Shown here: one piece after another, positions 41,838 to 55,905 of the stretch
How positions within the stretch are numbered: position 1 is the first letter of the stretch
Layout of the letters: every line of letters begins with the position of its first letter
DNA from: a virus
Reading direction: 5' to 3' (one strand)
IMG/VR virus record: IMGVR_UViG_3300017783_000023
Span: 1 to 57,229 of that record
DNA length: 57,229 bases
Notes under the pieces: generated by a model
What the model was told of the DNA's origin: nothing
Seen by the model: the letters and a program-made list of their open reading frames with translations, nothing else
Databases searched by the model: none
Translations under genes and position numbers: made by a program

Positions 41838-42692
41838 ATGTCCACTAAGATTATAGGAAACCAGATTGATCAGGTTACCCGTGCCATTGTTGAGGCATTA
41901 CAGGTAACCGAGCAGATCAATCTTCCTGCACTCAATCAAGCAGCAGTTACCGCCTTAGGTACTCCTGCCTTTGGTACTTTGGTTTATAATGAAACCGAAG
42001 ACATGGCGCAGATCTATAAGCAAGATGCTGCCCAAGGTGCTGCTGGATGGACTGATGTTGGTGGCGGTGGTCCTTCATTGGGTGAAGGATCTATTATCAG
42101 GACTAACGGTAAGAATATCCAAGAGAATATTACTGTTGGTGTGACTGCTAATGGTGCGCCCGAATTTGCCAACGGATTTACTGCTGGTCCAGTTTCTATC
42201 GATAATGGTTTCACGGTTACTGTTGAATCAGGAGCAACGTGGAATATTATTGGTGAAGAAGATGCAGCAACTGCACAATTTACTGAGATTACCTCAGGTA
42301 ATATAACATCGACAGGCACACTGCACTTTAGCGAAACTAAAGAAAGTATTACATTCTATAATACTACTAGCACTGTTACTCACGACTTTAATAATAACAA
42401 CTGCATCTTTGTCACTAAGACAGGTGGTGGTAACTTTACATTGAATCTACTCAATGTCCCCACAGATAATGCTGGATATAGTATTACTGTTATTGTCAAT
42501 AATAAAGGTGGTGCTGGTGTGCCTTCTACATTAAATATTGATGGTGTGACACAGGATATTCACTGGGCAGGAGCATCACAACCAGGACAGAATCAACCCA
42601 TTATTGTAGTTAGTTTTGCTCTGATTGCATTCAATACTGGTCAGGAAGGTGGTCAGTATACAGTATTAGGTAGTGGAGCAAATTACGGATGA
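41838..42692 (+). CDS. Putative tail fibre-associated structural protein
   Basis: A 284-residue protein. It begins IIGNQIDQVTRAIVEALQVT and has LVYNETEDMAQIYKQDAAQG, a motif of fibre-associated proteins, then Thr-rich beta repeats (SGNITSTGTLHFSETKES) and NNKGGAGVPSTLNIDGV at the C-terminus. It overlaps the next gene by ATGA. It probably forms part of the distal fibre. Confidence 0.6.
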   Translation: MSTKIIGNQIDQVTRAIVEALQVTEQINLPALNQAAVTALGTPAFGTLVYNETEDMAQIYKQDAAQGAAGWTDVGGGGPSLGEGSIIRTNGKNIQENITVGVTANGAPEFANGFTAGPVSIDNGFTVTVESGATWNIIGEEDAATAQFTEITSGNITSTGTLHFSETKESITFYNTTSTVTHDFNNNNCIFVTKTGGGNFTLNLLNVPTDNAGYSITVIVNNKGGAGVPSTLNIDGVTQDIHWAGASQPGQNQPIIVVSFALIAFNTGQEGGQYTVLGSGANYG

Positions 42693-43651
42693 GTATTGGT
42701 GTTACTGGTATTAATTCTGCTATTGGTCAGACTTTAGGTAAATTTGGTGCTGATGGTGGTACTGGTGGATCTAGTAGTGGTGGCGGCGGTGGTGGTGGAC
42801 CAACGGTTTCTGTTAGAAACATAGGTGCTACTACCAGCGTTTATGAAGCAAGTGCTGGCACTACTATATCAATGAGTGGTGAATCATCACAAACAGGAGT
42901 TATATATGATGTAGTTGTTACTGCTCCTATTAATGCCACTATTAAAGCATGGGGTGGTGGCGGTGGTGGCACAAAGAGATCTTCTGGCGTAACTGGTGGT
43001 AATGGTGGTTATTCCACAGGATCATATACTTTCCAACCAGGTAGTTATATTTTTTATATTGGTGGTGCTGGAGAAGGTGGAAGTGAAAATCCAGCATCAA
43101 ATACTGCATATGGTGCAGTAGCAACTGGTGGTGGTAAATCTGGTAGTTCTACATCTTCAGATTTTGATGGTGCTGGTGGTGGAGGATTTACTGGAGTAAT
43201 TGCAGGTAGTGTTACTTCCCCAGCACAATCAAATTCTGTCATAATTGCAGGCGGTGGTGGCGGTGGATCTGGTGATACTGCTACAGGTGGCAATGGCGGC
43301 GGCAGTACAGGCGGAAATGCCTCTAATTGCTGCTCTCGTGGCGGTGGCGGTGGATCACAAACTGGTGGCGGCAGTGCTGGATCAGGTGCTGGTGGTGGTA
43401 GTGCTCTGATAGGTGGTAACGGCAGTGGTGTCGGTGCTGGCGGCGGTGGCGGTTACTACGGCGGTGGCGGTGGTGGTTCTTCAGGTCCAGGCGGCGGTGC
43501 TGGCGGGTCAGGATATATTGGGGGTGTTACAGGTGGATCCACGAGTACAACTCTAAATACAAGTGACAGTGCTTATGTTAGTCCTTGTGGCGGTGGTGGT
43601 GCTAATGGTCAACGAGGCAGTTGTGGATTACTTGTCATTGTTTTTTCATAA
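42689..43651 (+). CDS. Glycine-rich fibre tip protein
   Basis: A 320-residue protein with a short N-terminal anchor (SIGVTGINSAIGQTLGKFG), a beta domain and then a domain composed mostly of Gly with Ser, Asn and Thr. Segments such as GGGGGYYGGGGGGSSGPGG and a final CGGGGANGQRGSCGLLVIVFS resemble the polyglycine-type tips of phage adhesins. A Cys pair lies near the C-terminus. Likely role: receptor recognition. It differs in N-terminus from the three tandem paralogs that follow. Confidence 0.65.
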   Translation: MSIGVTGINSAIGQTLGKFGADGGTGGSSSGGGGGGGPTVSVRNIGATTSVYEASAGTTISMSGESSQTGVIYDVVVTAPINATIKAWGGGGGGTKRSSGVTGGNGGYSTGSYTFQPGSYIFYIGGAGEGGSENPASNTAYGAVATGGGKSGSSTSSDFDGAGGGGFTGVIAGSVTSPAQSNSVIIAGGGGGGSGDTATGGNGGGSTGGNASNCCSRGGGGGSQTGGGSAGSGAGGGSALIGGNGSGVGAGGGGGYYGGGGGGSSGPGGGAGGSGYIGGVTGGSTSTTLNTSDSAYVSPCGGGGANGQRGSCGLLVIVFS

Positions 43652-43676: not shown

Positions 43677-44486
43677 ATGGCACAATTAACTGTAAACGCT
43701 GTTAAAGACTTAGGTGGTATTGGTGGATTCACCTTATCAAGTAGTGGTTTGACTGCAAACGGCACATTAACAGTGTCGAATTTGGATATTTCTGGCACTC
43801 TTGCAGGATCATCAAACTATATTGTTCCCAACCCATCAGGAAACGTTGGTAAGTTTTTAACTAACAATGGGTCTAGTCTCACTTGGGGTGACTTGAGTGG
43901 TGCCGCTGGTGTTAGATCTATGCAGGTCTGGACATCTAATGGCACTTGGACTAAACCATCAGGTGTTAAAACTATTATGGTTACTGTTACTGGTGCTGGC
44001 GGAGGAGGATCAGGTCACTGTGAATCTGGTGGTGCTGGAGGTACTTCACAAAGACAGATTGATGTTACTAATGTATCATCAGTGTCAGTCACTATTGGTA
44101 ATCCTGGCGGTGGCACAAACTACTCTGGATGTGGTGGCAGTGGCAATACTTCATCGTTTGGATCATACTGTTCTGGATCAGGTGGTCTTGGTGCAAACTG
44201 TAATCAACAGCACGCAGGTGGATATGGTGGCAACGGATCAGGTGGTACTTTAAATATTTACGGTGGTGGCGGTAATGGTCACGGATCGCACTATTCATAT
44301 GGTAACCACACATCAGGAGTAAGTTACTTCGGTGGATCTCAACCATCATCACATAGAGGATCAAACTATTCTCATAGACATCAATCTCATGCTGCATGGG
44401 GTGCTGGTGGCAATGGTGCTCAACACTCTAATAGGGGTGCTAGAGGGCGTGAAGGTGTTGTCGTAGTCCACGAATTCTACGGATAA
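43677..44486 (+). CDS. Gly/His-rich adhesin, tandem copy 1
   Basis: A 269-residue protein. Residues 1-75 are an attachment domain (LTVNAVKDLGGIGGFTLSS, LTVSNLDISGTLAGSSNYI). Then comes SMQVWTSNGTWTKPSG, the usual entry to Gly-rich tip domains, and a Gly/Ser/His-rich body with conserved Cys (GHCESGG, SGCGGSGN, GANC) and HRHQSHAAWGAGGNG. It ends GREGVVVVHEFYG. It is a paralog of the next two genes and probably a receptor-binding tip like Gly-rich gp38-type adhesins. Confidence 0.65.
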   Translation: MAQLTVNAVKDLGGIGGFTLSSSGLTANGTLTVSNLDISGTLAGSSNYIVPNPSGNVGKFLTNNGSSLTWGDLSGAAGVRSMQVWTSNGTWTKPSGVKTIMVTVTGAGGGGSGHCESGGAGGTSQRQIDVTNVSSVSVTIGNPGGGTNYSGCGGSGNTSSFGSYCSGSGGLGANCNQQHAGGYGGNGSGGTLNIYGGGGNGHGSHYSYGNHTSGVSYFGGSQPSSHRGSNYSHRHQSHAAWGAGGNGAQHSNRGARGREGVVVVHEFYG

Positions 44487-44489
44487 ATA
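44482..44489 (+). promoter_or_regulatory. Late promoter variant GATAAATA
   Basis: GATAAATA spans the stop codon of adhesin copy 1, 17 nt before copy 2. Confidence 0.55.
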
Positions 44490-44506
44490 AAACTAAAGAG
44501 ACTATT

Positions 44507-45316
44507 ATGTCACAGATTAGAGTATCATCTATTAAAGACTTATCTGATACCTCTGGATTCTTACTTTCCACGGGTAAGATTCATGCGATCGGAACTTTGA
44601 CAGTCTCTAATATTGTCATCAATGGTAAGATCACAGGTAATGCTGATTATGTGATCCCAAATGTATCAGGTAATGCTGAGAAATTTCTAAGAGCAGGTGC
44701 ATCTGGTCTTGAATGGGCAGTTGCTGGTGGTGCCTCTGGTACCAGATCGCTTCAAGTGTGGACATCTAATGGCACTTGGACTAAACCATCTGATTGTAAA
44801 TCTATCATCGTTACTGTTACAGGTGCTGGTGGAGGAGGATCAGGTCACTGTGAATCAGCAGGTGCAGGTGGTACATCTGAAAGAGTTATTGATGTGACTA
44901 ATGTTAGTAACGTAACAGTTACCATTGGTAATCCTGGTGGTGGCACAAACTATGCAGGATGTGGTGGCAGTGGCAATACTTCATCGTTTGGTAGTTATTG
45001 CTCTGCATCTGGTGGATATGGCGCTAACTGTCGTCAACAACACGCTGGAGGTGTTGGTGGTAATGGGTCAGGTGGTGATCTAAATGTATATGGTGGTGGT
45101 GGCAATGGTCATGGATCACACTACAGTTATGGTAACCATTCCTCTGGTAGATCTTATTGGGGCGGTGGACAACCATCATCTCATGGTCAAGTAAACTATG
45201 CTCATAGACATCAATCTCATGCTGCATGGGGTGCTGGCGGTAATGGTTCTCAGCACGGCAATAGAGGTGCTAGGGGGCGTGAAGGTGTTGTTGTAGTCCA
45301 AGAGTTCTACGGATAA
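44507..45316 (+). CDS. Gly/His-rich adhesin, tandem copy 2
   Basis: A 269-residue paralog of copy 1, the same length and the same architecture: an attachment domain (SSIKDLSDTSGFLLSTGKI), SLQVWTSNGTWTKPSD, the Cys-containing Gly body (GHCESAGAGG, GANCRQQHAGG) and the end REGVVVVQEFYG. Differences from copies 1 and 3 concentrate in the N-terminal domain and in short surface-like loops (SGRSYWGGGQPSSHGQ). Probably a receptor-binding tip. Confidence 0.65.
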   Translation: MSQIRVSSIKDLSDTSGFLLSTGKIHAIGTLTVSNIVINGKITGNADYVIPNVSGNAEKFLRAGASGLEWAVAGGASGTRSLQVWTSNGTWTKPSDCKSIIVTVTGAGGGGSGHCESAGAGGTSERVIDVTNVSNVTVTIGNPGGGTNYAGCGGSGNTSSFGSYCSASGGYGANCRQQHAGGVGGNGSGGDLNVYGGGGNGHGSHYSYGNHSSGRSYWGGGQPSSHGQVNYAHRHQSHAAWGAGGNGSQHGNRGARGREGVVVVQEFYG

Positions 45317-45319
45317 ATA
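45312..45319 (+). promoter_or_regulatory. Late promoter variant GATAAATA
   Basis: GATAAATA spans the stop codon of adhesin copy 2, 19 nt before copy 3. Confidence 0.55.
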
Positions 45320-45338
45320 CTAAGTCAGGTCAAACAAA

Positions 45339-46142
45339 ATGAGCGTCTTAAGAGTAAATAACGTATACGATCCTTCTGGTGTTGGTGGATTCACCCTCAA
45401 CAGTGGATCTATCGTTGCAAATGGTGAATTAAAAGTAACCAATTTGAATATTAATGGATCGATTACTGGATCGTCCAACTATATTATCCCATCATTTTCT
45501 AGTGGTCAGTATCTATCAAACGATGGAACTAACTTGACCTGGATTGAAGCAGGTTCATCAGGTGGGTTTAGATCTATGCAGGTCTGGACATCTAATGGCA
45601 CTTGGAGTAAACCAAGCAATTGTAAATCGATTAAAGTCGTCGTAATTGGCGCTGGTGGCGGGGGATCGGGTTATTGTGAATCTGGTGGTGCTGGTGGTTC
45701 TGCTCATAAAGTTATCGATGTAACCAATATTAGTAGCGTAACAGTTACTATTGGCAATCCAGGTGGTGGCACAAACTATTCTGGATGTGGTGGAGGTGGT
45801 AATACTTCGTCCTTCGGTAGTTATTGCTCAGGTGGTGGTGGCACTGGCGCTAACTGTCGCCAAAGTAGAGCGGGAGGTACTGGTGGTAATGGATCAGGTG
45901 GTAATCTAAATGTATACGGTGGTGGTGGAAACGGTCACGGATCTAATCACTCATACGGCAATCATGCTGGCGGATCAGGATTTTTTGGTGGATCACAACC
46001 ATCATCCCACAGACAAACTAATTATTCACACAGACATCAATCTCATGCTGCATGGGGTGCTGGTGGAAACGGTGCTAGAAATAGTAACCGTGGAGCAAGA
46101 GGACGCGAAGGTGTGTGTGTAGTTTACGAATATTATTCTTGA
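45339..46142 (+). CDS. Gly/His-rich adhesin, tandem copy 3
   Basis: A 267-residue third paralog (VNNVYDPSGVGGFTLNSGSI, then SMQVWTSNGTWSKPSN). It keeps the Cys pattern (GYCESGG, SGCGGGGN, GANC) and HRHQSHAAWGAGGNG, and ends REGVCVVYEYYS. It varies most in the loop after the Gly body (GGSGFFGGSQPSSHRQT). The three copies could allow alternative tips or serve as recombination donors. Confidence 0.65.
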   Translation: MSVLRVNNVYDPSGVGGFTLNSGSIVANGELKVTNLNINGSITGSSNYIIPSFSSGQYLSNDGTNLTWIEAGSSGGFRSMQVWTSNGTWSKPSNCKSIKVVVIGAGGGGSGYCESGGAGGSAHKVIDVTNISSVTVTIGNPGGGTNYSGCGGGGNTSSFGSYCSGGGGTGANCRQSRAGGTGGNGSGGNLNVYGGGGNGHGSNHSYGNHAGGSGFFGGSQPSSHRQTNYSHRHQSHAAWGAGGNGARNSNRGARGREGVCVVYEYYS

Positions 46143-46148
46143 TAAATA
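46141..46148 (+). promoter_or_regulatory. Late promoter variant GATAAATA
   Basis: GATAAATA begins within the stop codon of adhesin copy 3, 24 nt before the 46173 gene; a ribosome site (gaagga) follows at 46154. Confidence 0.5.
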
Positions 46149-46172
46149 ACAACGAAGGAGACTTAATCTATC

Positions 46173-46601
46173 ATGGCTAAATGGGCAATCTGCAATGCAA
46201 ATAATGGACAATTGTCTGATATTTGCGAAGAAGAAGATAAATTTGAGATCTACGAAGGTGTAGATGCTAACATTAAGTGGGTACCAGTCCCTGATGATTG
46301 TACCTATGAGCACACCATGATTAATGGAGTTGCGGTGCATAGATCTGATACTGAAGATCTCAGAGAAGAAGCAGTGGTTGATAGAACTCTTGCATATGGT
46401 CCAATTGGTGATCAACTTGATATGCAGTATCAAGATCTCCAAGATGGTGGCACACGTTGGAAGGATCACGTTGCTAATGTTAAAGGGTCTACAACAAAAC
46501 CCAGTGACATTGCTGAATATGTGCATAATGAAAAGCATACTCAACTAGAAGGACGCAAACCATGGGATGCATGGGTTGACAATTGGACGCCCCCAGCATA
46601 G
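46173..46601 (+). CDS. Putative tail fibre accessory protein
   Basis: A 142-residue soluble acidic protein (KWAICNANNGQLSDICEEED; later LAYGPIGDQLDMQYQDLQDG and RWKDHVANVK). The motif GDQLDxxY occurs in short phage proteins encoded next to tail fibres, possibly assembly helpers. It is expressed from the late promoter at 46141 and ends before a terminator. Role inferred from context. Confidence 0.5.
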   Translation: MAKWAICNANNGQLSDICEEEDKFEIYEGVDANIKWVPVPDDCTYEHTMINGVAVHRSDTEDLREEAVVDRTLAYGPIGDQLDMQYQDLQDGGTRWKDHVANVKGSTTKPSDIAEYVHNEKHTQLEGRKPWDAWVDNWTPPA

Positions 46602-46620
46602 ACTAACAATACAACTACAT

Positions 46621-46645
46621 AGAGCAGAATAACTGCTCTTTTTTT
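46621..46645 (+). terminator. Intrinsic terminator abutting the halogenase start codon
   Basis: AGAGCAG (46621-46627) pairs perfectly with CTGCTCT (46633-46639) around AATAA, followed by six T that end exactly before ATG 46646. It closes the fibre operon. It leaves no room for a ribosome site between the hairpin and the start. Confidence 0.8.
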
Positions 46646-48262
46646 ATGCGTGTCGAGTCTATTGTTATTGTTGGTGGTGGTAGTAGTGGGTGGATGTCAG
46701 CGGCAATGCTGTCTAAAACTTTCCCCAACATGCAGATTGGTTTAATTGAGAGTGATCAAGGTCCCATTGGTGTAGGTGAGTCTACATTAGGTCATTTTAA
46801 TCGATTTCTAAAAAGATTGGGATTGAAAGATGAAGATTGGATGCCATATTGCAACGCAACTTATAAGACATCAATTGCATTTAAAAACTTCAGACATGGT
46901 AAGGGTGAGAGATTCCAATACCCATTTGGGGAGTTTGATCTAGTTGATTATAAAGACACTGGATTGCAACGATACTTTGAGTTGGGATGTAAGTATGGTC
47001 TTGACAAGTATGGTCCTGATGAGTTTGCTAACTATGTAAACAATCAGACATACTTAGCAGATAAATGTAAGATCTCAAAGGAACCGATTGGTGACAGCAC
47101 CTTTGACTTTGATCTTGATACAGCATATCATTTTGATGCAGGATTGTTTGGTAACTATCTAAGAGATAACATCTGTATTCCTAATGGAGTGATGCACTTC
47201 AAAGGTAGTATTGAAAGGGTAGTAAAGAATCCTGATGGCACCATTGATTCGCTAATTACTGATAAAGATGGATTAATCAAAGCAGATCTTTACATTGATT
47301 GCACAGGTTTCAAGTCACTGTTACTTGAGCAGCACATGGGTAGTAAGTTTATCTCATTCAAAGATAAACTATTCAATGACACAGCATTAGCAACACAGAT
47401 TCCATACTCTGATCGTGAGAATCAGATGGAAACATATACTGACTGTGTTGCAATGGATGCAGGGTGGGTATGGAATATCCCACTATGGAATCGTGTTGGC
47501 ACAGGATATGTTTACTCATCAGATTATATCAATGAGTGTGAGGCAGAGGTAGAGTTTAGGAAGTATCTCAGTGAGAGATATACGCCTGAAATTGCCCAAG
47601 AATGCCAGTTAAGAAAGATAGATATTAGACATGGTAAACGTGAGAAAGCATGGGTTAAGAATGTCATAGGTATTGGATTGTCTTTTGGATTCTTAGAACC
47701 TCTAGAATCTACTGGGTTGATGACAACTCATGAATGTATTCTATTGCTATGTGATTTCTTACAACGTCGCCAAGGATTCTACTCTGGATTTGAAATTGAC
47801 TCATATAATTATCAGTGTGACAATATGATTGAGTCGATGAAGAATTTCATTGCCATTCATTATGCATTGAGTCAACGTGATGATAATCAATACTGGAGAG
47901 ACTGCACTAATATAAATTTTGATATTGATCCAACGTGGTGCCAATCCACCAGATCAGCACACTCTAGCGTAGTTACACTGATTGACAATCCAGAGGATGC
48001 ATTCTATAATCTAGAGAAGCACAGTGGATCAATTTACATTGCTGCTGGTCAAGGTTATAGACCTTTCTCCGAAGGTTTATTCTCTGAGAGACTAAATGCT
48101 TATGCTCAACGAGAAGAGCATGAGGAGTTGCTTGAAGAAATACACACTAAATATCAACAAGACCGAAAAGTCTTAATGGAATGGGTAGACAAACTACCAT
48201 CACACTATGAGTACTTAAGAGACAACATTTATGATCTTCAAGAAGAAGAAACCGTGGGTTAG
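46646..48262 (+). CDS. FAD-dependent (tryptophan-type) halogenase
   Basis: A 538-residue protein with the flavin halogenase motifs in order: the FAD-binding GGGSSGWM (residues 10-17), GVGEST (42-47), NATYK with the likely catalytic lysine K74, the signature WVWNIP (WxWxIP, residues 274-279) and FLEPLESTG (349-357). The enzyme uses FADH2 and O2 to make HOCl or HOBr, which halogenates an aromatic substrate through the lysine. A flavin reductase is needed and none is seen here. The start is fixed by the FAD motif at the N-terminus. It heads the oxygenase island. The substrate could be tryptophan, a peptide or a pigment. Confidence 0.85.
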   Translation: MRVESIVIVGGGSSGWMSAAMLSKTFPNMQIGLIESDQGPIGVGESTLGHFNRFLKRLGLKDEDWMPYCNATYKTSIAFKNFRHGKGERFQYPFGEFDLVDYKDTGLQRYFELGCKYGLDKYGPDEFANYVNNQTYLADKCKISKEPIGDSTFDFDLDTAYHFDAGLFGNYLRDNICIPNGVMHFKGSIERVVKNPDGTIDSLITDKDGLIKADLYIDCTGFKSLLLEQHMGSKFISFKDKLFNDTALATQIPYSDRENQMETYTDCVAMDAGWVWNIPLWNRVGTGYVYSSDYINECEAEVEFRKYLSERYTPEIAQECQLRKIDIRHGKREKAWVKNVIGIGLSFGFLEPLESTGLMTTHECILLLCDFLQRRQGFYSGFEIDSYNYQCDNMIESMKNFIAIHYALSQRDDNQYWRDCTNINFDIDPTWCQSTRSAHSSVVTLIDNPEDAFYNLEKHSGSIYIAAGQGYRPFSEGLFSERLNAYAQREEHEELLEEIHTKYQQDRKVLMEWVDKLPSHYEYLRDNIYDLQEEETVG

Positions 48263-49106
48263 ATTCTATTCAATAGACCCTGGAGTTGCAGACTTACAAC
48301 CATGGACTCATGCAAGTAAATTGCATAGAAAGTGGCGCACTGATGCAATCAAAGCAGGTAATGATAAAGAGAAACGTTGTCCATATCTTAGAGTAAAGAA
48401 ACTCTGGGATAGAATGTCAGCAGAGTTAAATGGTCAGGAGTCTATTCCTGAGTTATATTCTCATGCAGTGACATGTCCTGCATTGAAAGATGTAATGGAT
48501 TCTGGTTATATTCTCCATGCCCCTGCTGATATTCTAATCAAGACTGATGGCACTGGTGTAAACTTTGAGTGGATATCTCAAATGAGATTCTGCACACAGA
48601 CTGGATCAGGTAAGTATGTCAGTGCTCATATTCCTCAGCAAACAGAGGGTGTGCGAGAGTTAGTTGATCAGACTAAAGATGTATTAGACTGGACAATCAA
48701 ACTAGAATTGCCATGGCGTGTGCAGGCACATCCTGACCTAGTGCTTATGCAGATGCCTATTCCATACTGGGATGAAGATAGATTCACCCCTCCAGTTGGT
48801 GTAGTTGATCCAGCATATTCCTATGAGATTAACTTACAACTATTCTGGCATAAAATAGAAGAGGGTGAATATTTAATTAAGGCAGGTACACCACTATGCC
48901 AGTGGGTGCCAATGCGTCGTGACTACTTAAACAAGAGAAATATTGATTTCTATTGTGAGACAGCAAATGAGGCAGACTTTGAAAACAATGCTATCATGGA
49001 ATACCAACGCCATAAATCTTTTATGGAGATGGAAACATTGAAGGAGCGTATTGAATCTCATCGTCTAATTCTTGCACTAAATAAAAACATTAAGAGGTTT
49101 ATGTGA
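48231..49106 (+). CDS. Unknown protein coupled to the halogenase
   Basis: A 291-residue soluble protein overlapping the halogenase by 32 nt. It has RFYSIDPGVADLQPWTHASK at the start, then ILHAPADILIKTDG and a beta-rich middle. Near residue 220 it has WHKIEEGEYLIKAGTPLCQWVPM, followed by a helical C-terminus. The pattern recalls DUF6065-like proteins, but I am not certain. The strong overlap suggests it works with the halogenase, for example as a substrate-presenting or processing partner. Confidence 0.55.
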   Translation: MIFKKKKPWVRFYSIDPGVADLQPWTHASKLHRKWRTDAIKAGNDKEKRCPYLRVKKLWDRMSAELNGQESIPELYSHAVTCPALKDVMDSGYILHAPADILIKTDGTGVNFEWISQMRFCTQTGSGKYVSAHIPQQTEGVRELVDQTKDVLDWTIKLELPWRVQAHPDLVLMQMPIPYWDEDRFTPPVGVVDPAYSYEINLQLFWHKIEEGEYLIKAGTPLCQWVPMRRDYLNKRNIDFYCETANEADFENNAIMEYQRHKSFMEMETLKERIESHRLILALNKNIKRFM

Positions 49107-49492
49107 CCATGGCAAATGAAGAAGTGACAGTTGTTGATCTTGCAGAAATTGCAGGTGTTAGCAAAGAGACTACAGCAAATCCTATTGATGGTCTGATTAG
49201 TTTTGATCAGTTGGTAATGAATTTCCTTCAGCAATATGAAGATACTAAAGACGAGTATCGTAAATTGCAAGAAGCATTAGATAACATGCATTATACTTCC
49301 ACGATCACCAAAATCTCACTGGAAGAGTTGCAAACTAAGAGAGATACTTTGAATAAGTTGAGTGGTGCTGTTGAAGCAATGTCACTCTATAAGAGACATG
49401 TTGATCCTAATTGCACTGAGAGAGAGTTTACTTTTCAGGAAGATGTTCCAGCACCAGTAGAGGAAGCACTACCTGCATCTGATGAAAACTGA
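49103..49492 (+). CDS. Coiled-coil hypothetical protein
   Basis: A 129-residue acidic, helical protein with a probable coiled coil (residues 50-95, YEDTKDEYRKLQEALDNMHY). GTG 49103 is preferred because AGAGG (49092-49096) sits at ideal distance and it overlaps the previous stop (GTGA); ATG 49109 is the alternative. It overlaps the next oxygenase gene by 11 nt. Function unknown. Confidence 0.55.
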   Translation: MTMANEEVTVVDLAEIAGVSKETTANPIDGLISFDQLVMNFLQQYEDTKDEYRKLQEALDNMHYTSTITKISLEELQTKRDTLNKLSGAVEAMSLYKRHVDPNCTEREFTFQEDVPAPVEEALPASDEN

Positions 49493-50132
49493 GTTAATAT
49501 TTCCAACACCAATTTGGAAGTTTGATAATGTTGGTATCGATAGAGAAAAACTCATCGATTTCGTTGATGTTGTGAGAACTGAGGATCCCAAAGGTAGAAA
49601 ATCATCTAACGAGGGTGGATGGCAATCGTGGGACTTCATCGATTCAGTGATGGATAACAATCCATTGAAACAACTTAGAAACTCAATCATGGAGCGAGCA
49701 TATGCTGCTGCCGATGAGTTTGGGTTTAATAATTATAGTCTAGGCATGATCAATCTATGGATCAATGTCAATAATAAGGGAGACTTCAACCAACTTCATA
49801 CTCACCCTGGTGGTGTATTGTCTGGTGTATACTATTTAAAACTCCCATCATGCTGTCATGGTAATCTTACATTCGTAAGAGATCTTCAATATACTTTCAT
49901 GAAAGAATTTTGGGGTGACGGTACAAATGTCCATCATTGGGAGGATATGAATAAAGTCGAGCATGATATCTTTCCAGAAGAAGATCAGATGGTGATCTTT
50001 CCAGCATGGTTACCACATACCGTGGGCAAGTCTGCTGGTGAAGGAGATAGAATCTCCATATCATTTAATATAACCGCCTATTCTGATTATTATCATGAGA
50101 TATATCCAAGTAGAAAATCTACTAAGTCCTAG
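49482..50132 (+). CDS. 2OG-Fe(II) oxygenase (PF13759-type)
   Basis: A 216-residue oxygenase. It starts with FPTPIWKFD and has H106-T-H108 (QLHTHPGGVLSG), H179 (AWLPHTVG) and R190 (GDRISISFN), the iron and 2OG ligands of the double-stranded beta-helix. TELIFPTPIW and SGVYYL are typical of the 2OG-FeII_Oxy_5 family, in which the first metal pair reads HxH or HxHP. It uses 2-oxoglutarate and O2 to hydroxylate an unknown substrate. Confidence 0.75.
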   Translation: MKTELIFPTPIWKFDNVGIDREKLIDFVDVVRTEDPKGRKSSNEGGWQSWDFIDSVMDNNPLKQLRNSIMERAYAAADEFGFNNYSLGMINLWINVNNKGDFNQLHTHPGGVLSGVYYLKLPSCCHGNLTFVRDLQYTFMKEFWGDGTNVHHWEDMNKVEHDIFPEEDQMVIFPAWLPHTVGKSAGEGDRISISFNITAYSDYYHEIYPSRKSTKS

Positions 50133-50763
50133 TTATCTCAAGAGATTGCAAGATCTCACGGGTGGTATGAATGGATTCCCATGGTTTTTCTTATCGGAAG
50201 ATATTAGTTTCAGCACTAAAGATAAGTTTGATTCTGATGGCACGTTAGACATACCTCGTGAAATGCCTATACCTGAAGAGCATAAGACTGTGGGGTTTAC
50301 GCATGTGTTAATGGACCAAGATGGGGTGGAGAGTCCATTCTTGCCCACATTCGCCCCACTATTAGACATCGTTGCTGATGCACTTCCTTACCCTGTAGAA
50401 TTCTTTCGAGTGAGACTGGCACTACAGTTAGCAAACGGGAAAGATGCATATAATGGTCCACATACTGATCATGAGACTGATCATTATGCAGCATTATTCT
50501 ATCTCAACGATTCAAGTGGTGATACTGTTTTCTTCCATGAATATGATGATCCTAGTTATGGATCAGTTGATGAGAGATGGGTCAAAGCAACATCTCAACC
50601 ATATAATAAGTTGATGGGTGTAACACCTGAAGCAAATAAGTTGTTTGTATTCAATGGTCATAGATTCCACTCGTCATCTAATCCAACGACTAATCCTTAC
50701 AGGATTATATTAAACCTCAACTTTAGGTGTGAGCATGATTTATTCGATTTTGCAACAACTTGA
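50095..50763 (+). CDS. 2OG-Fe(II) oxygenase, prolyl 4-hydroxylase-like
   Basis: A 222-residue oxygenase overlapping the previous one by 38 nt. The iron and 2OG ligands are H123-T-D125 (GPHTDHETDHYAALFYL), H192 (NGHRFHSSSN) and R203. GDTVFFHE and the C-terminal YRIILNLNFR are typical of the P4H-like fold. Substrate unknown. Confidence 0.7.
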   Translation: MRYIQVENLLSPSYLKRLQDLTGGMNGFPWFFLSEDISFSTKDKFDSDGTLDIPREMPIPEEHKTVGFTHVLMDQDGVESPFLPTFAPLLDIVADALPYPVEFFRVRLALQLANGKDAYNGPHTDHETDHYAALFYLNDSSGDTVFFHEYDDPSYGSVDERWVKATSQPYNKLMGVTPEANKLFVFNGHRFHSSSNPTTNPYRIILNLNFRCEHDLFDFATT

Positions 50764-51427
50764 CAAAGACTGGGCTATTGATGACTCTCCACAATATTGG
50801 GAGGGTATAATTGATGATCCATCATACTATGCCACATGGAAAGATGTTGAGTATTGTATTAACAACCCACAATTCTTCGATCTGCAATTTATAGACAGAA
50901 TTTCTAATGTTTATATAGAGTATCCTATTCATGAAAGGTGTTGGTCACGTCCCACACCTGATGTTAAAGTATTGATGGAAGTCTTTAATGATGGTCACAA
51001 TATTATCATTAATAATTTTGATCAGATTGATACTAAGCGACAGAATATAATGAAGAGTGTTGAAGAAACATTCCCAGAAATTAGATCAGCAATGCACATA
51101 TATGCAGGTCTTAAAGATACCAAATCATTCAAAGTGCATGAAGATTGTGCTAACAACTTTATTATTCAAGTAGAAGGACAAACTCACTGGAGAGTATATA
51201 ATAACAGATGTAGCAATATTGTCGGCAAACGCTTTGATTATCCTGAGCATGACTTTCTAGATTGTGCGATTGATGTTATAATGTCACCAGGTGATATGCT
51301 CTACATTCCTGCTAGATGTTATCATCAAGCACAACCTCATGAGAAGAGACTATCAGTAAGTATACCTATGCAACACATGTATCCCCATTTGAAACCTATG
51401 GATCGGCATTATTATGAAATCAATTAA
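50735..51427 (+). CDS. JmjC-like (cupin) oxygenase
   Basis: A 230-residue protein. ATG 50735 is preferred over GTG 50729 because of AGG at 50725-50727. The site is H135-E-D137 (FKVHEDCANNFIIQVEG) and H197 (IPARCYHQAQP), preceded by IMSPGDMLYIP as in JmjC and ribosomal-protein hydroxylases. It shares its fold with the 33101 protein. It overlaps its neighbours on both sides. It probably hydroxylates a protein or small molecule. Confidence 0.7.
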   Translation: MIYSILQQLDKDWAIDDSPQYWEGIIDDPSYYATWKDVEYCINNPQFFDLQFIDRISNVYIEYPIHERCWSRPTPDVKVLMEVFNDGHNIIINNFDQIDTKRQNIMKSVEETFPEIRSAMHIYAGLKDTKSFKVHEDCANNFIIQVEGQTHWRVYNNRCSNIVGKRFDYPEHDFLDCAIDVIMSPGDMLYIPARCYHQAQPHEKRLSVSIPMQHMYPHLKPMDRHYYEIN

Positions 51428-52028
51428 TCCATTTCCTATCATTCACCGTTGCAAGTATGAGTTTGACTTCAATGAAGTCTTGCAAGGTAAAGTAGATGGA
51501 CATCTTGCTGCGGCAAAGCAACGTATTGAAGAGAATGGTTATAACACACACGAGAAAGGTGGTGGCACTACGAGTGTAGTTATCAATAAGATTGTGCCTC
51601 CTCATGTATGGGATGAGTTTGAAGATTTCAGACCATGGTTATACGAGCGTATCAATCGTGTGTGGGATATGTGGCACTTAGCACCCATGACTAAACATCT
51701 ATCAGACTCATGGATTAATGTACATCCACCAGGTGCATGGACAGCAGAGCATCATCATCAAAATGTCACAGTTGCCATCGCTGCCTATCTGAATGTCCCT
51801 AAAGATAGTGGTAAGTTTATGGTAAAGAATCCATATTCAATGTATAAACTGGGAGAACCACTTGACTATAACTATTATGATCAGAATATGGATTGGGAGT
51901 ATATTGAGGTGAAGACTGGAGATGTGTTATTCTTTCCAGGATGGTTAACACATAAGACTGAAGTTAACAACGGAACTAAAGATAGATATGTTATGAGTAT
52001 GAATGTAATGGGTAACTATGTCACTTAA
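51414..52028 (+). CDS. 2OG-Fe(II) oxygenase (PF13759-like)
   Basis: A 204-residue oxygenase with INVHPPGAWTAEHHHQN (HHH at 113-115), H180 (PGWLTHKTEV) and R191 (DRYVMSMN). KTGDVLFFPGW is the strand before the distal His. It starts inside the previous gene and overlaps the next by 11 nt, so the series is translationally coupled. Confidence 0.7.
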   Translation: MKSINPFPIIHRCKYEFDFNEVLQGKVDGHLAAAKQRIEENGYNTHEKGGGTTSVVINKIVPPHVWDEFEDFRPWLYERINRVWDMWHLAPMTKHLSDSWINVHPPGAWTAEHHHQNVTVAIAAYLNVPKDSGKFMVKNPYSMYKLGEPLDYNYYDQNMDWEYIEVKTGDVLFFPGWLTHKTEVNNGTKDRYVMSMNVMGNYVT

Positions 52029-52725
52029 GATAATCGATACTAATCTCATGAGTTGGGATATGTATGAGCATATTGTACATTTACCTTACAAATTTACTAG
52101 GGTCGATGTGCCACCTACCAAAAATATGCCTGAGATTGACGAGGGTGGATTATATTGGACACATCAATTATATAATTACTGTCCAATTGAAGACCCTGAA
52201 TACTATCAAAACGCAGGACTAGAAGGCAGCGAAGATCCTATCTACAAAGATATACTCTCATATCTTGAAGCGACAATCAGGGATTTCCCACCTAGAGAGA
52301 ATCTCTACTCGGCATATATCAATGTGCTTAGATCAAGAGATGATCCAGGTATTCATTGTGATGCTCCATACTTTGTAGAAGATAATCAGACGGTTGTTGT
52401 ATACTTAAATCATTACTGGAATCCACAATTTGGTGGTGAAACTATATTCTTTGATGAAGATCTAGATGCTCAGCGTATAGTACAACCAAGACCTGGTAGA
52501 GTTATCATCTTTGATGGTAGAATACCACACACAGGTAGACCACCAACGCCCAAGTTTAGACATAATAGATATATTATGTCATTCAAATATATGGATCCAG
52601 CATCACGTAAGAAATTGTTTGTTGACCATGAGATTAACAACATGCCACCAATTGAAGATAGTGGAATAGCAGGATTTCACCCACCTACAGTTAAACAGAT
52701 TTGGAAGAAGATGAATGAAACTTAA
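52018..52725 (+). CDS. 2OG-Fe(II) oxygenase
   Basis: A 235-residue oxygenase with H113-C-D115 (PGIHCDAPYF), H171 (DGRIPHTGRP) and R184 (RYIMSFK). GGETIFFDEDLDAQRIVQP and PGRVIIFDG form the usual beta strands. YLNHYWNPQFGGET resembles the WxxxxGGET motif of P4H-like phage oxygenases. Fourth 2OG-type member of the cluster. Confidence 0.72.
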   Translation: MSLKIIDTNLMSWDMYEHIVHLPYKFTRVDVPPTKNMPEIDEGGLYWTHQLYNYCPIEDPEYYQNAGLEGSEDPIYKDILSYLEATIRDFPPRENLYSAYINVLRSRDDPGIHCDAPYFVEDNQTVVVYLNHYWNPQFGGETIFFDEDLDAQRIVQPRPGRVIIFDGRIPHTGRPPTPKFRHNRYIMSFKYMDPASRKKLFVDHEINNMPPIEDSGIAGFHPPTVKQIWKKMNET

Positions 52726-53233
52726 AGAATGGTTTGATAGAACTGAAGGTCACTGGTTGAGTGAGCGCAGATATATTTTCAATAGTCGTCCTTCAATGAT
52801 GACTAGCAGGATTTATACAGGTCCATTAGAAGAAGAGAGAGTGTCATTAATTCCTGACACTTTTAATGCTGATCTTTTCCTCAAATTCAAGTGGACCACT
52901 ACACATTATGACACCTTGAAGGAAGTTTCTGGTGGTGAAATGTTAGTTGGTGTAAATACTACAGATCACACGATTTACAGGTCTGTCGGTTACATGACTG
53001 ACAAACCAACTGTTACTAACGTAACCATGGTTGATGATGACACAGTTGTGTTGATTACCGAATATGATAATCAACAATTTCGAGAAGAAATTAGACTTTT
53101 GCATAATGATACGGTAAGATTACGTCAGACCGTTGGTTTCTCTGGAGACAGAGTAACTGTCGTTGGTCAGTATTATGAGACTCGCACGGATGATTACGAT
53201 GTTCAACAAGTCAGCAATCCTATCCTCCAATGA
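52715..53233 (+). CDS. cpeS: CpeS/CpcS-like phycobiliprotein lyase
   Basis: A 172-residue lipocalin-like protein: WFDRTEGHWLSERRYIFNS, SRIYTGPLEEERV, LFLKFKWTTTH, VGVNTTDHTIYRSVGYM, EIRLLHNDTVRLRQTVGF and VGQYYETR. The start and the closing RLRQTxGF/VGQYxE segments fit S-type lyases of cyanophages, which attach phycoerythrobilin to phycobiliproteins. It sits between two oxygenases. Together with the CpeT-like gene at 28756 it suggests a phycobilisome-bearing Synechococcus host. The call is by pattern only. Confidence 0.55.
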   Translation: MKLKEWFDRTEGHWLSERRYIFNSRPSMMTSRIYTGPLEEERVSLIPDTFNADLFLKFKWTTTHYDTLKEVSGGEMLVGVNTTDHTIYRSVGYMTDKPTVTNVTMVDDDTVVLITEYDNQQFREEIRLLHNDTVRLRQTVGFSGDRVTVVGQYYETRTDDYDVQQVSNPILQ

Positions 53234-53240
53234 AAAGGGG

Positions 53241-53354
53241 ATGATTAAACAAGCATTGTTTTTATATCAAAAAAACATGTATGAACGGAATGGTGAGTTG
53301 ACACCAACCCAAAAAGATACGATACAAACCATAGTTAATACATTGCATCTATAA
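53241..53354 (+). CDS. Short helical protein
   Basis: A 37-residue ORF from ATG 53241 behind AAAGGGG (53233-53239), an unusually good ribosome site. It reads IKQALFLYQKNMYERNG then LTPTQKDTIQTIVNTL. Helical; unrecognised. Confidence 0.45.
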   Translation: MIKQALFLYQKNMYERNGELTPTQKDTIQTIVNTLHL

Positions 53355-53355
53355 T

Positions 53356-53976
53356 ATGGAAATCTTGCCCCTCTTTGCTCAACCAGTTTATATCGACGTT
53401 GTTGATATGCCAACGGATATAGTAAAGAGAGCAAGCAAGACTGCCATGCAGGATATGGAGTTAGACTCACACTATTCTAAGAATGGTTCAATGTCTGACG
53501 ATACTCAATGGTTATCACACAATCTAGATGTTAAAGACATTGTTGATACTCACATGGACATATATGTGCATGAAGCATTATCAATCAGTCGTAGACATAC
53601 AATACAACATCAATCGTCATGGATTAATTATCATGGCATTGGTGATAGTGCCGCTGAGCATACTCACCCCAACAGTATGTTTAGCGGTTGTTTGTATATT
53701 AAGGTGCCACCCAACTGTGGTGAGTTTCGTCTGAGAATGCCAACAATGTTTCCAACCTACTTGACGAGCACTGTGCAACCTGATATCATGGAGAGCAACT
53801 ACCTCAATCAAAGGGAGTTTCCGATCGAACCATGTGATGGCACTATTATTATCTTTCCTTCACATCTACCTCACTATGTCTCACCCTCAGAGACTGAAGA
53901 TGATAGATACTCATGCGCCTTTAATTATTTCCTAAAAGGCACATTTGGAAGGGAAGACACTGCTTTGACTCTATGA
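53356..53976 (+). CDS. 2OG-Fe(II) oxygenase (PF13759-type)
   Basis: A 206-residue oxygenase starting MEILPLFAQPVYIDV. It has H102-T-H104 (AEHTHPNSMFSGCLYI), H173 (SHLPHYVSP) and R184 (DDRYSCAFNYF). The layout matches the 49482 protein, so the two may be distant paralogs. It ends the oxygenase run and overlaps the next gene by ATGA. Confidence 0.72.
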   Translation: MEILPLFAQPVYIDVVDMPTDIVKRASKTAMQDMELDSHYSKNGSMSDDTQWLSHNLDVKDIVDTHMDIYVHEALSISRRHTIQHQSSWINYHGIGDSAAEHTHPNSMFSGCLYIKVPPNCGEFRLRMPTMFPTYLTSTVQPDIMESNYLNQREFPIEPCDGTIIIFPSHLPHYVSPSETEDDRYSCAFNYFLKGTFGREDTALTL

Positions 53977-54336: not shown

Positions 54337-54364
54337 GCCACTACATGCAAAAATGCTCTATATT
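54335..54364 (+). promoter_or_regulatory. sigma70-type promoter for the endonuclease-methylase pair
   Basis: TTGCCA (54335-54340), 18 nt, TATATT (54359-54364): five of six matches in each hexamer. A start near 54371 would exclude the in-frame ATG at 54345 and supports ATG 54393. Confidence 0.6.
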
Positions 54365-54392
54365 AAGGGAGTTGAAAGCACTGCACCCAATC

Positions 54393-55073
54393 ATGGACAA
54401 CACTATTTCCTTTGAGCGTTGCGTCGAAATCATCAATAACGAAATCTATGCTGAAGTGCAACTAACTGTTGATGACTATCGTACATCAGCACGTCGCCCT
54501 ACTGCACTTCGTAAATCTGATATTACGTTTGAATCATATCTAAAATCATTTGAAACTGACGAGAAGCAGAAGACACAAACAGTCACTAAGTTTCTCCAGT
54601 ATTGGTTTGCTGAAGCATTATCAATCATCATCGATCGTTATAACTTACCGATTGTTGATGGTTGTGGTGCTGGTCAGGATTATGCCTACGTTGGTAACTC
54701 ATACCAAGGCAAAACAATCACTAAACCTATGCCAATTGAGTATAAGTCTGCTGGCGGTAAGGATGGGTCATCAGCATGTCTTGGCAACCTAGGTGTTAAT
54801 GTGAAATGCGAATTGACCCTTGTTTGTCGTTACAAACTCGAAGGCAATCGTATCAGTGAGCGTCAGACTCTCACGATTGAAAACTCTGCTTACAAGTGGA
54901 AAGCATACAACAAAGGTAAGTTTGATCCTAAGACTGGTGAGTCTAAGTCTTCTAACTTCAGTGGATTGCGCTGCATGACTAACAGTGACTATCAGGATAT
55001 TGTGTGCTATTCTGGTAGACTGAAGAAGAATTCTACTTGGGTCAAATTCATTAAAGAAACAATCAATGCTTGA
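54393..55073 (+). CDS. Candidate restriction endonuclease (PD-(D/E)XK type)
   Basis: A 226-residue protein from ATG 54393; an ATG at 54345 is in frame but lies upstream of the predicted transcription start. Helices around FLQYWFAEALSIIIDRY precede GAGQDYAYV with D96, and E116-Y-K118 (MPIEYKSA) completes a D-(20)-ExK active site as in type II restriction enzymes. GSSACLGN and a beta-rich C-terminal half follow. It overlaps the methyltransferase gene by 8 nt under one early-type promoter. I do not recognise a specific restriction family. A different nuclease, or a non-nuclease partner of the methylase, is possible. Confidence 0.5.
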   Translation: MDNTISFERCVEIINNEIYAEVQLTVDDYRTSARRPTALRKSDITFESYLKSFETDEKQKTQTVTKFLQYWFAEALSIIIDRYNLPIVDGCGAGQDYAYVGNSYQGKTITKPMPIEYKSAGGKDGSSACLGNLGVNVKCELTLVCRYKLEGNRISERQTLTIENSAYKWKAYNKGKFDPKTGESKSSNFSGLRCMTNSDYQDIVCYSGRLKKNSTWVKFIKETINA

Positions 55074-55905
55074 TATTAACACCACACACTTGATGAGTTG
55101 TATTGATGGGATGCAACTCATGGACGCTGAGAGTGTCGATCTAGTCGTCACATCTCCTCCCTACGATGATCTCAGGACTTACAATGACAGCAGTCAATGG
55201 GATCACAACGTCTTTAAAGAGGTTGCTACTTGTCTAGTAAGGGTGCTAAAACCTGGTGGTGTTATTATGTGGAATGTCAATGATTCCACAGTCAAAGGAT
55301 CAGAGACTGGTAGTAGTTTCAGACAATGCTTACATTTTATGGACGCACATGGTCTGAGACTACATGACACCATGATATATGAGAAGACAGGCACTGCCTT
55401 CGCATCTGGTCCTAATAGTGTTAGATATACTCAAATCTTTGAGTATTGTTTCATACTATCCAAAGGCAAACCTAAGACGATTAATCTTATTCAAGACAAG
55501 AAGAATAAGTGGGCAGGGTATACCTCGTTTGGCAATGCTGTGACGAGGAAGAAAGATGGCACCTTCTTGGACCCTGGTAAGAAGAGCAAAGAGATCAAAG
55601 AATGGGGTGTCAGGACTAACATATGGAGGATCAAAAATAGTGGTGGATTCGGTCAATCATCCAAGGTAAGTTACAAACATCCTGCCACTATGCCTGAAGA
55701 GTTAGCAACAGGGCACGTATTAACGTGGTCTGATGAGAAAGACTTAATTCTTGATCCTTTCATGGGTGCTGGCACTACTGCCCAGGTCTGCTGCGAAAAC
55801 AATCGCAATTTTATCGGTTTTGAGATAGATGACACATACCACCAAATGTGTGTCGATCGTGTGCTACCATGGCAAGACAACGTACTCACCAGACTCAATG
55901 ATTGA
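55066..55905 (+). CDS. DNA methyltransferase, N4-cytosine/N6-adenine beta-class
   Basis: A 279-residue methylase. Motif IV TSPPYDDL is at residues 29-36, the SAM-binding motif I DPFMGAGTT at 230-238, and HPATMPEELA (205-214) lies between. The order IV before I marks the beta group (PF01555); SPPY is common in N4-cytosine and some N6-adenine enzymes. It would protect phage DNA or methylate host sites. It is coupled to the preceding nuclease-like gene (8-nt overlap) and to the next gene (8-nt overlap). Confidence 0.85.
   Translation: MLDINTTHLMSCIDGMQLMDAESVDLVVTSPPYDDLRTYNDSSQWDHNVFKEVATCLVRVLKPGGVIMWNVNDSTVKGSETGSSFRQCLHFMDAHGLRLHDTMIYEKTGTAFASGPNSVRYTQIFEYCFILSKGKPKTINLIQDKKNKWAGYTSFGNAVTRKKDGTFLDPGKKSKEIKEWGVRTNIWRIKNSGGFGQSSKVSYKHPATMPEELATGHVLTWSDEKDLILDPFMGAGTTAQVCCENNRNFIGFEIDDTYHQMCVDRVLPWQDNVLTRLND

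Follow-up and report, generated by a model that had tools for sequence, protein, structure and literature searches.

Gene organization of the island

The DNA analysed here, which we call the window, is the virus record IMGVR_UViG_3300017783_000023 of IMG/VR, a 57,229-base fragment of a T4-like cyanophage that carries gp32, gp53, a gp5-type baseplate gene, PhoH, purine-synthesis genes and cyanophage fibre families. Our subject is an island at positions 43677–53976, in which glycine-rich tail adhesin genes are followed by a flavin-dependent halogenase gene and a set of oxygenase genes in a single unbroken run on the plus strand. A preliminary description of the window had reported a cluster of halogenase and oxygenase genes at 46646–53976; the open reading frames (ORFs) do lie there, all on one strand, and the cluster is stronger than that description had it. 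From 5′ to 3′, the island comprises three adhesins (43677–44486, 44507–45316 and 45339–46142), gene p (phrog_1787, 46173–46601), the halogenase (46646–48262), a 291-amino-acid protein with a dUTPase-like fold (48231–49106), the small gene s, a predicted coiled coil (49103–49492), two 2-oxoglutarate (2OG) type oxygenases (49482–50132 and 50095–50763), a JmjC oxygenase (50729–51427), two further 2OG-type oxygenases (51414–52028 and 52018–52725), a CpeS-like gene (52715–53233) and a last 2OG-type oxygenase (53356–53976). All of the genes previously named are present, and the CpeS-like gene had been missed. The genes had also been described as joined by overlaps, which is correct up to 53233, where the overlaps measure 4–38 bp; the junction between 53233 and 53356 is a gap. 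The cluster was said to follow the adhesin genes, and these are indeed upstream, with the conserved gene p lying between.

Linkage of the adhesin and the halogenase

Loci were gathered from IMG/VR with four separate anchors (the halogenase, the adhesin, the JmjC oxygenase and the DUF6065-like protein), and annotated cyanophage genomes were added. Loci sharing identical proteins were grouped as one, and genes were labelled by profiles. In marine cyanobacterial viruses, the linkage between the adhesin and the halogenase holds in every checkable case. With one exception, the 133 adhesin groups with enough DNA have a halogenase on the adhesin strand no more than 4 kb further downstream (132 groups); in the exception, L101, the block of adhesins is flipped with respect to the enzymes but still adjoins them. 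For 107 non-redundant islands, the DNA reaches 9 kb or more beyond the adhesin on its downstream side. Every one of these 107 contains the halogenase, with gene p between it and the adhesin, and a 2OG oxygenase is found in 106, gene s in 99, the JmjC oxygenase in 94 and the DUF6065-like gene in 88. Further downstream, a methylase occurs in 41 of the 107 and phrog_8681 in 52, lower counts to which shorter flanks contribute. Consecutive enzyme genes of the 107 islands overlap or abut at 576 of 682 junctions.

Because some of the other anchors select for enzymes, we consider scans that used the adhesin alone to be the fair test. Two such scans found a halogenase in 75 of 75 assessable loci and, with a divergent adhesin clade, in 73 of 73; loci lacking a halogenase end before one could be seen. 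The adhesin is carried by 19 of 50,697 GenBank phage records, and all 19 also carry the halogenase, including Syn10, the source of the halogenase VirX1. Viewed from the JmjC oxygenase, a halogenase lies at most 8 kb upstream in 108 of 108 groups. Well over 100 further phage loci show the same gene order, which is beyond chance, and it is kept at 31–50% protein identity. The preliminary description had suggested a search of other viral genomes for a halogenase beside these oxygenases, and had held that random gene order in relatives would speak against a pathway. The arrangement is conserved in relatives, the order strongly so, and wherever the DNA is of sufficient length the adhesin is accompanied by the halogenase.

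Beyond these islands, several distant halogenases have a glycine-rich ORF no more than 50 bp away (L097, L112 and S-SRM01). In the last of these, a freshwater Synechococcus phage (L026, 8881–11462), the halogenase (29% identity) sits between a tail-fibre gene and a gene annotated as a gp37–gp38 adhesin tip, 36 bp from this glycine-rich "adhesin tip" gene, and thus provides a freshwater counterpart of the linkage. Two variants of the island were also observed. Reduced islands in L044, L049, L050 and L057 consist of adhesins, gene p and the halogenase, with neither JmjC nor DUF6065-like gene, and may represent a minimal version. In a second phage lineage (L224, L231, L234-L243, L247, L248 and others), one to three extra halogenases and an oxygenase lie on the opposite strand directly beyond the island, approximately 5 kb after the JmjC gene.

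Pairwise protein distances were compared over 54 common loci. The correlation with the halogenase is 0.87 for JmjC, 0.87 for gene p and 0.71 for the adhesin, and falls to 0.45 for the fibre upstream of the adhesins (phrog_529, 1190 amino acids in the window); the correlation between adhesin and fibre is 0.73, and once the fibre is accounted for, halogenase and adhesin retain a partial correlation of 0.63. The enzyme trees match one another more closely than they match those of flanking genes. These values are consistent with enzymes that move together and with an adhesin linked to the fibre as well as to them.

None of the best 80 bacterial halogenase loci contains the adhesin, the DUF6065-like gene or the phage JmjC gene. 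A bacterial origin of the module was therefore rejected, and the cassette appears to be phage-specific in the loci examined. Many of the bacterial halogenase genes adjoin a long ORF, and four of the five such ORFs tested encode TonB-dependent receptors. Such bacterial loci resemble those of the phages in having a surface-protein neighbor and differ in lacking the three phage genes just named.

The glycine-rich adhesins

The three tandem adhesins are 267–269 amino acids long and 71–74% identical, copies 2 and 3 sharing 74% and 71% identity with copy 1. Copy 1, the proposed substrate, matches the tail family phrog_863 (E = 3e-61) and PF21722 (Gly_rich_2, E = 8e-9). Its AlphaFold model has a predicted local distance difference test (pLDDT) score of 82.5. 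A sequence-only PDB search with the adhesin gave no match, and its relatives surfaced by fold comparison alone: the best Foldseek match is the fibre of cyanophage Pam3 (7YPX; E = 1e-7, template modeling (TM) score 0.52), followed by the tail tip of mycobacteriophage Bxb1 (E = 4e-6) and, more weakly, by ALK/LTK glycine-rich domains. The name "tail adhesin" is supported by the presence of a phage fibre and a phage tail tip among these fold neighbors. The glycine-rich domain fold is shared with the Pam3 fibre and ALK/LTK, whereas a conserved His-rich segment is particular to the adhesin family of the island; this His-, Tyr- and Trp-rich segment (e.g., SHRHQSHAAWG) lies in the C-terminal part and is kept across relatives. 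Residue 226 (numbering of 43677–44486) is His in 95% of the sequences from JmjC-containing islands. Among islands with a single adhesin, it is Trp in five of five without JmjC and His in six of six informative cases with JmjC. Between the upstream fibre and copy 1, a further glycine-rich protein of the ALK/LTK domain type is encoded on the plus strand (42689–43651; PF12810, E = 1e-7), with 35% Gly and no His.

The halogenase and its relationship to VirX1

The claim of an intact flavin halogenase with K74 and WVWNIP is borne out. The protein matches PF04820 over residues 6–473 (E = 4e-106) and phrog_2928 (E = 3e-157), and the motifs GGGSSGW, K74, W274...P279 (WVWNIP) and E354 (EPLESTG) are intact. 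In an alignment of nine halogenase relatives, K74, W274, P279, E351 and E354 are invariant. The closest solved relative is VirX1 of phage Syn10 (PDB 6QGM, E = 2e-154), with which the catalytic Lys and Glu and the WxWxIP motif are held in common, and the window halogenase can be assigned on these grounds as a new member of the VirX1-type clade. VirX1 is a crystallised viral halogenase that serves as a biocatalyst. Another of the PDB matches, MibH (5UAO), halogenates a peptide and constitutes a precedent for such a substrate. The halogenase genes of Syn9 and Syn10 sit in the same adhesin–DUF6065-like–JmjC island; the Syn9 orthologue is approximately 49% identical to that of the window, and Syn9 has two halogenases in tandem where the window has one. 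VirX1 is reported to be trimeric, to have an active site that is open and accessible, and to prefer iodide over bromide and bromide over chloride (PMC8407142).

The oxygenases

The preliminary description credited all of the oxygenases with complete metal ligands. The canonical set is present in the JmjC protein (H137-x-D139...H199) and, among the 2OG proteins, only in those starting at 50095 (H123-x-D125...H192...R203) and 52018 (H113-x-D115...H171). The three PF13759 proteins, which start at 49482 (H106-x-H108...H179...R190), 51414 (H113-x-H115...H180...R191) and 53356 (H102-x-H104...H173...R184), have H-x-H...H...R instead of the canonical 2-His-1-carboxylate triad. Their family matches score 62.8–78 bits against a cut-off of 27, and the solved PF13759-type relative 3BVC aligns with the same H-x-H...H...R residues, so the pattern seems to be characteristic of the family and not a sign of damage. 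The 52018 oxygenase (PF13640) is weakly similar to PHD2-type prolyl hydroxylases. The 50095 oxygenase belongs to phrog_274, whose label "DNA endonuclease V" we reject, because its members carry the 2OG motif H-x-D...H...R. The label, which looks wrong for the 50095–50763 and 52018–52725 genes alike, has been copied into several GenBank cyanophage records.

The JmjC protein (PF08007, JmjC_2; E = 9e-21) retains H137, D139 and H199 in all eight aligned sequences. Its best solved matches are NO66 (E = 2e-12), MINA (E = 9e-10) and the L16 arginine hydroxylase (E = 1e-5), and JMJD5 is also matched. NO66 and MINA are histidyl hydroxylases and the L16 enzyme is an arginyl hydroxylase; all of these act on protein. 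The window protein differs from them in length (232 amino acids against about 370–490 in the listed chains), and the NO66 and MINA matches span the JmjC region alone, without the C-terminal dimerisation and winged-helix domains. Because it is short and lacks these domains, we do not class it as a ribosomal oxygenase. A ribosomal protein is probably not its target.

Discussion

Considering the gene content, the intact active-site residues, the exclusive linkage between adhesin and halogenase, the fibre-like fold of the adhesin and the protein-hydroxylase kin of the JmjC enzyme, we lean slightly toward the view that the cassette halogenates and hydroxylates the phage's own glycine-rich adhesin after translation. 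The preliminary description had proposed a tailoring pathway whose target is either a protein or peptide, such as the adhesin, or else a pigment or signal of the host. Because the JmjC kin are protein His and Arg hydroxylases and because the cassette is linked to the adhesin, a protein target is favored, and the pigment or signal is less supported.

According to this model of adhesin maturation, the late-gene cassette would perform a covalent maturation of the tail adhesin. The three adhesin copies would be synthesised and mounted on the fibre with the aid of helpers, perhaps including gene p, and host enzymes would supply reduced flavin to the VirX1-type halogenase, which would modify exposed aromatic residues (Trp, Tyr or His) of the glycine-rich domain. 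The dUTPase-fold protein may act as a partner of the halogenase or present the substrate to it. The JmjC and 2OG enzymes would hydroxylate further side chains, with His, Arg, Asn or Pro expected. The phage would probably benefit from a receptor-binding tip whose stability or binding chemistry in seawater is altered. The adhesin as substrate, the modified residues and the benefit are what we infer from the evidence listed above.

Several points weigh against adhesin maturation. Neighboring genes can stay linked even if enzyme and substrate never meet, and adjacency by itself raises tree correlations and could contribute to the values reported here. In other lineages of phage halogenases (S-H35, S-MbCM6, HTVC008M and Syn1), the gene is found apart from adhesins. 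VirX1 takes many small aromatic compounds in vitro, and the account of this work describes no protein substrate (PMC8407142). No modified residue of the adhesin is known, and the conserved His run could bind metal instead. Moreover, the coupling between His226 and JmjC is not significant on the halogenase tree (five changes each, four independent pairs, median p = 1); with so few independent changes left after phylogenetic control, we discarded it as evidence.

It is also conceivable, if unlikely, that the cassette modifies a different protein, which might belong to the tail or fibres or else to the host surface, in the latter case for example for receptor masking or a block of superinfection. 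Several fibre genes do lie upstream of the island, and the TonB-dependent receptors beside bacterial halogenase homologues offer a surface-protein parallel. However, the upstream fibre tracks the halogenase less closely than the adhesin does (0.45 vs. 0.71).

Somewhat less probable is the published view of the cyanophage halogenase, in which it acts on free tryptophan, protects against antibiotics or alters host metabolites (PMC9964418, PMC10452541, PMC2984593). Under such small-molecule tailoring, the island would be a set of auxiliary metabolic genes, with the halogenase acting on free tryptophan, a host metabolite or a pigment and the oxygenases on the same or other metabolites. The broad small-molecule scope of VirX1 (PMC8407142) is in keeping with this proposal, and the CpeS-like lyase of some islands touches pigment chemistry. 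However, no further biosynthetic gene is recognised in the island, the JmjC kin are protein hydroxylases, and the proposal does not explain why the genes are tied exclusively to a single family of adhesins.

A neutral linkage ranks just below this. T4-like cyanophages have hot spots of gene content (PMC3037559), and if the region after the tail fibres is such an insertion site, neighboring genes, which recombine together, could be co-inherited with no shared function. Yet the genes further downstream (41/107 and 52/107) are far rarer than the halogenase (107/107), even though flank length contributes to this difference; the order is kept at the low protein identities given above; and the linkage outlasts the inversion in L101. 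Finally, it is very improbable that the oxygenases serve 2OG/nitrogen signalling or DNA repair with the halogenase as a chance neighbor, a role put forward for cyanophage 2OG enzymes generally (PMC3037559, PMC9146016), since neither the conserved order with the adhesin nor the JmjC kinship fits it and no repair gene is recognised in the island.

Phages are known to modify their virion proteins, glycosylated tail proteins being an example. Adhesin maturation resembles these systems in that a phage would alter its own tail protein after translation, and differs in that the proposed modifications are halogenation and hydroxylation. A literature search that did not take in the primary VirX1 paper or most subscription papers turned up neither a halogenated virion protein nor an earlier description of the adhesin cassette or proposal of adhesin modification. 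VirX1-type halogenases, 2OG oxygenases and phycobilin lyases are already known in cyanophages and are not new singly; the new part is the conserved cassette of adhesin, halogenase and hydroxylases. Being tied exclusively to a single family of adhesins, the cassette points to a specific candidate substrate for VirX1, for which we know of no natural substrate. We put at about even the chance that the virus attaches halogens and hydroxyl groups to its own receptor-binding adhesin, so that VirX1 gains a natural substrate and a halogenated protein becomes a component of the virion. Host recognition by marine phages would then involve halogenated, hydroxylated tail tips. Cyanophage halogenases of the VirX1 clade would no longer count as metabolic genes of the antibiotic type, and new enzymes for halogenating and hydroxylating proteins would become available.

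Additional genes of the island and its flank

The 291-amino-acid protein (phrog_7084), the gene for which overlaps that of the halogenase by 32 bp, has no Pfam match of its own, and 4 of 51 relatives match DUF6065, of which it is a distant relative. Its model (pLDDT 93.4) has a dUTPase-like fold according to Foldseek (dUTPases, E = 6e-4, TM score up to 0.60 by target), and segments resembling dUTPase motifs 3 and 4, as judged by eye, persist. From the gene overlap and the kept order, our guess is that this protein is a partner of the halogenase.

The CpeS-like gene encodes a protein similar to CpeS-type phycobilin lyases (PF09367; E = 2e-12, 47.5 bits against a cut-off of 23.3), with a weak match to the solved phycoerythrin lyase 4TQ2. 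It is an occasional member of the island, also found in L102, L174, L175, L176, L178 and L255, and its other phage relatives, from Synechococcus phages, occur in phages that were not found with the island. For these reasons the gene looks like an independent acquisition, and the idea of a pigment pathway was dropped. Downstream of the island, at 54345–55905, a 242-amino-acid ORF with no Pfam or PADLOC match overlaps an orphan-type DNA methyltransferase gene and could be its unrecognised nuclease partner.

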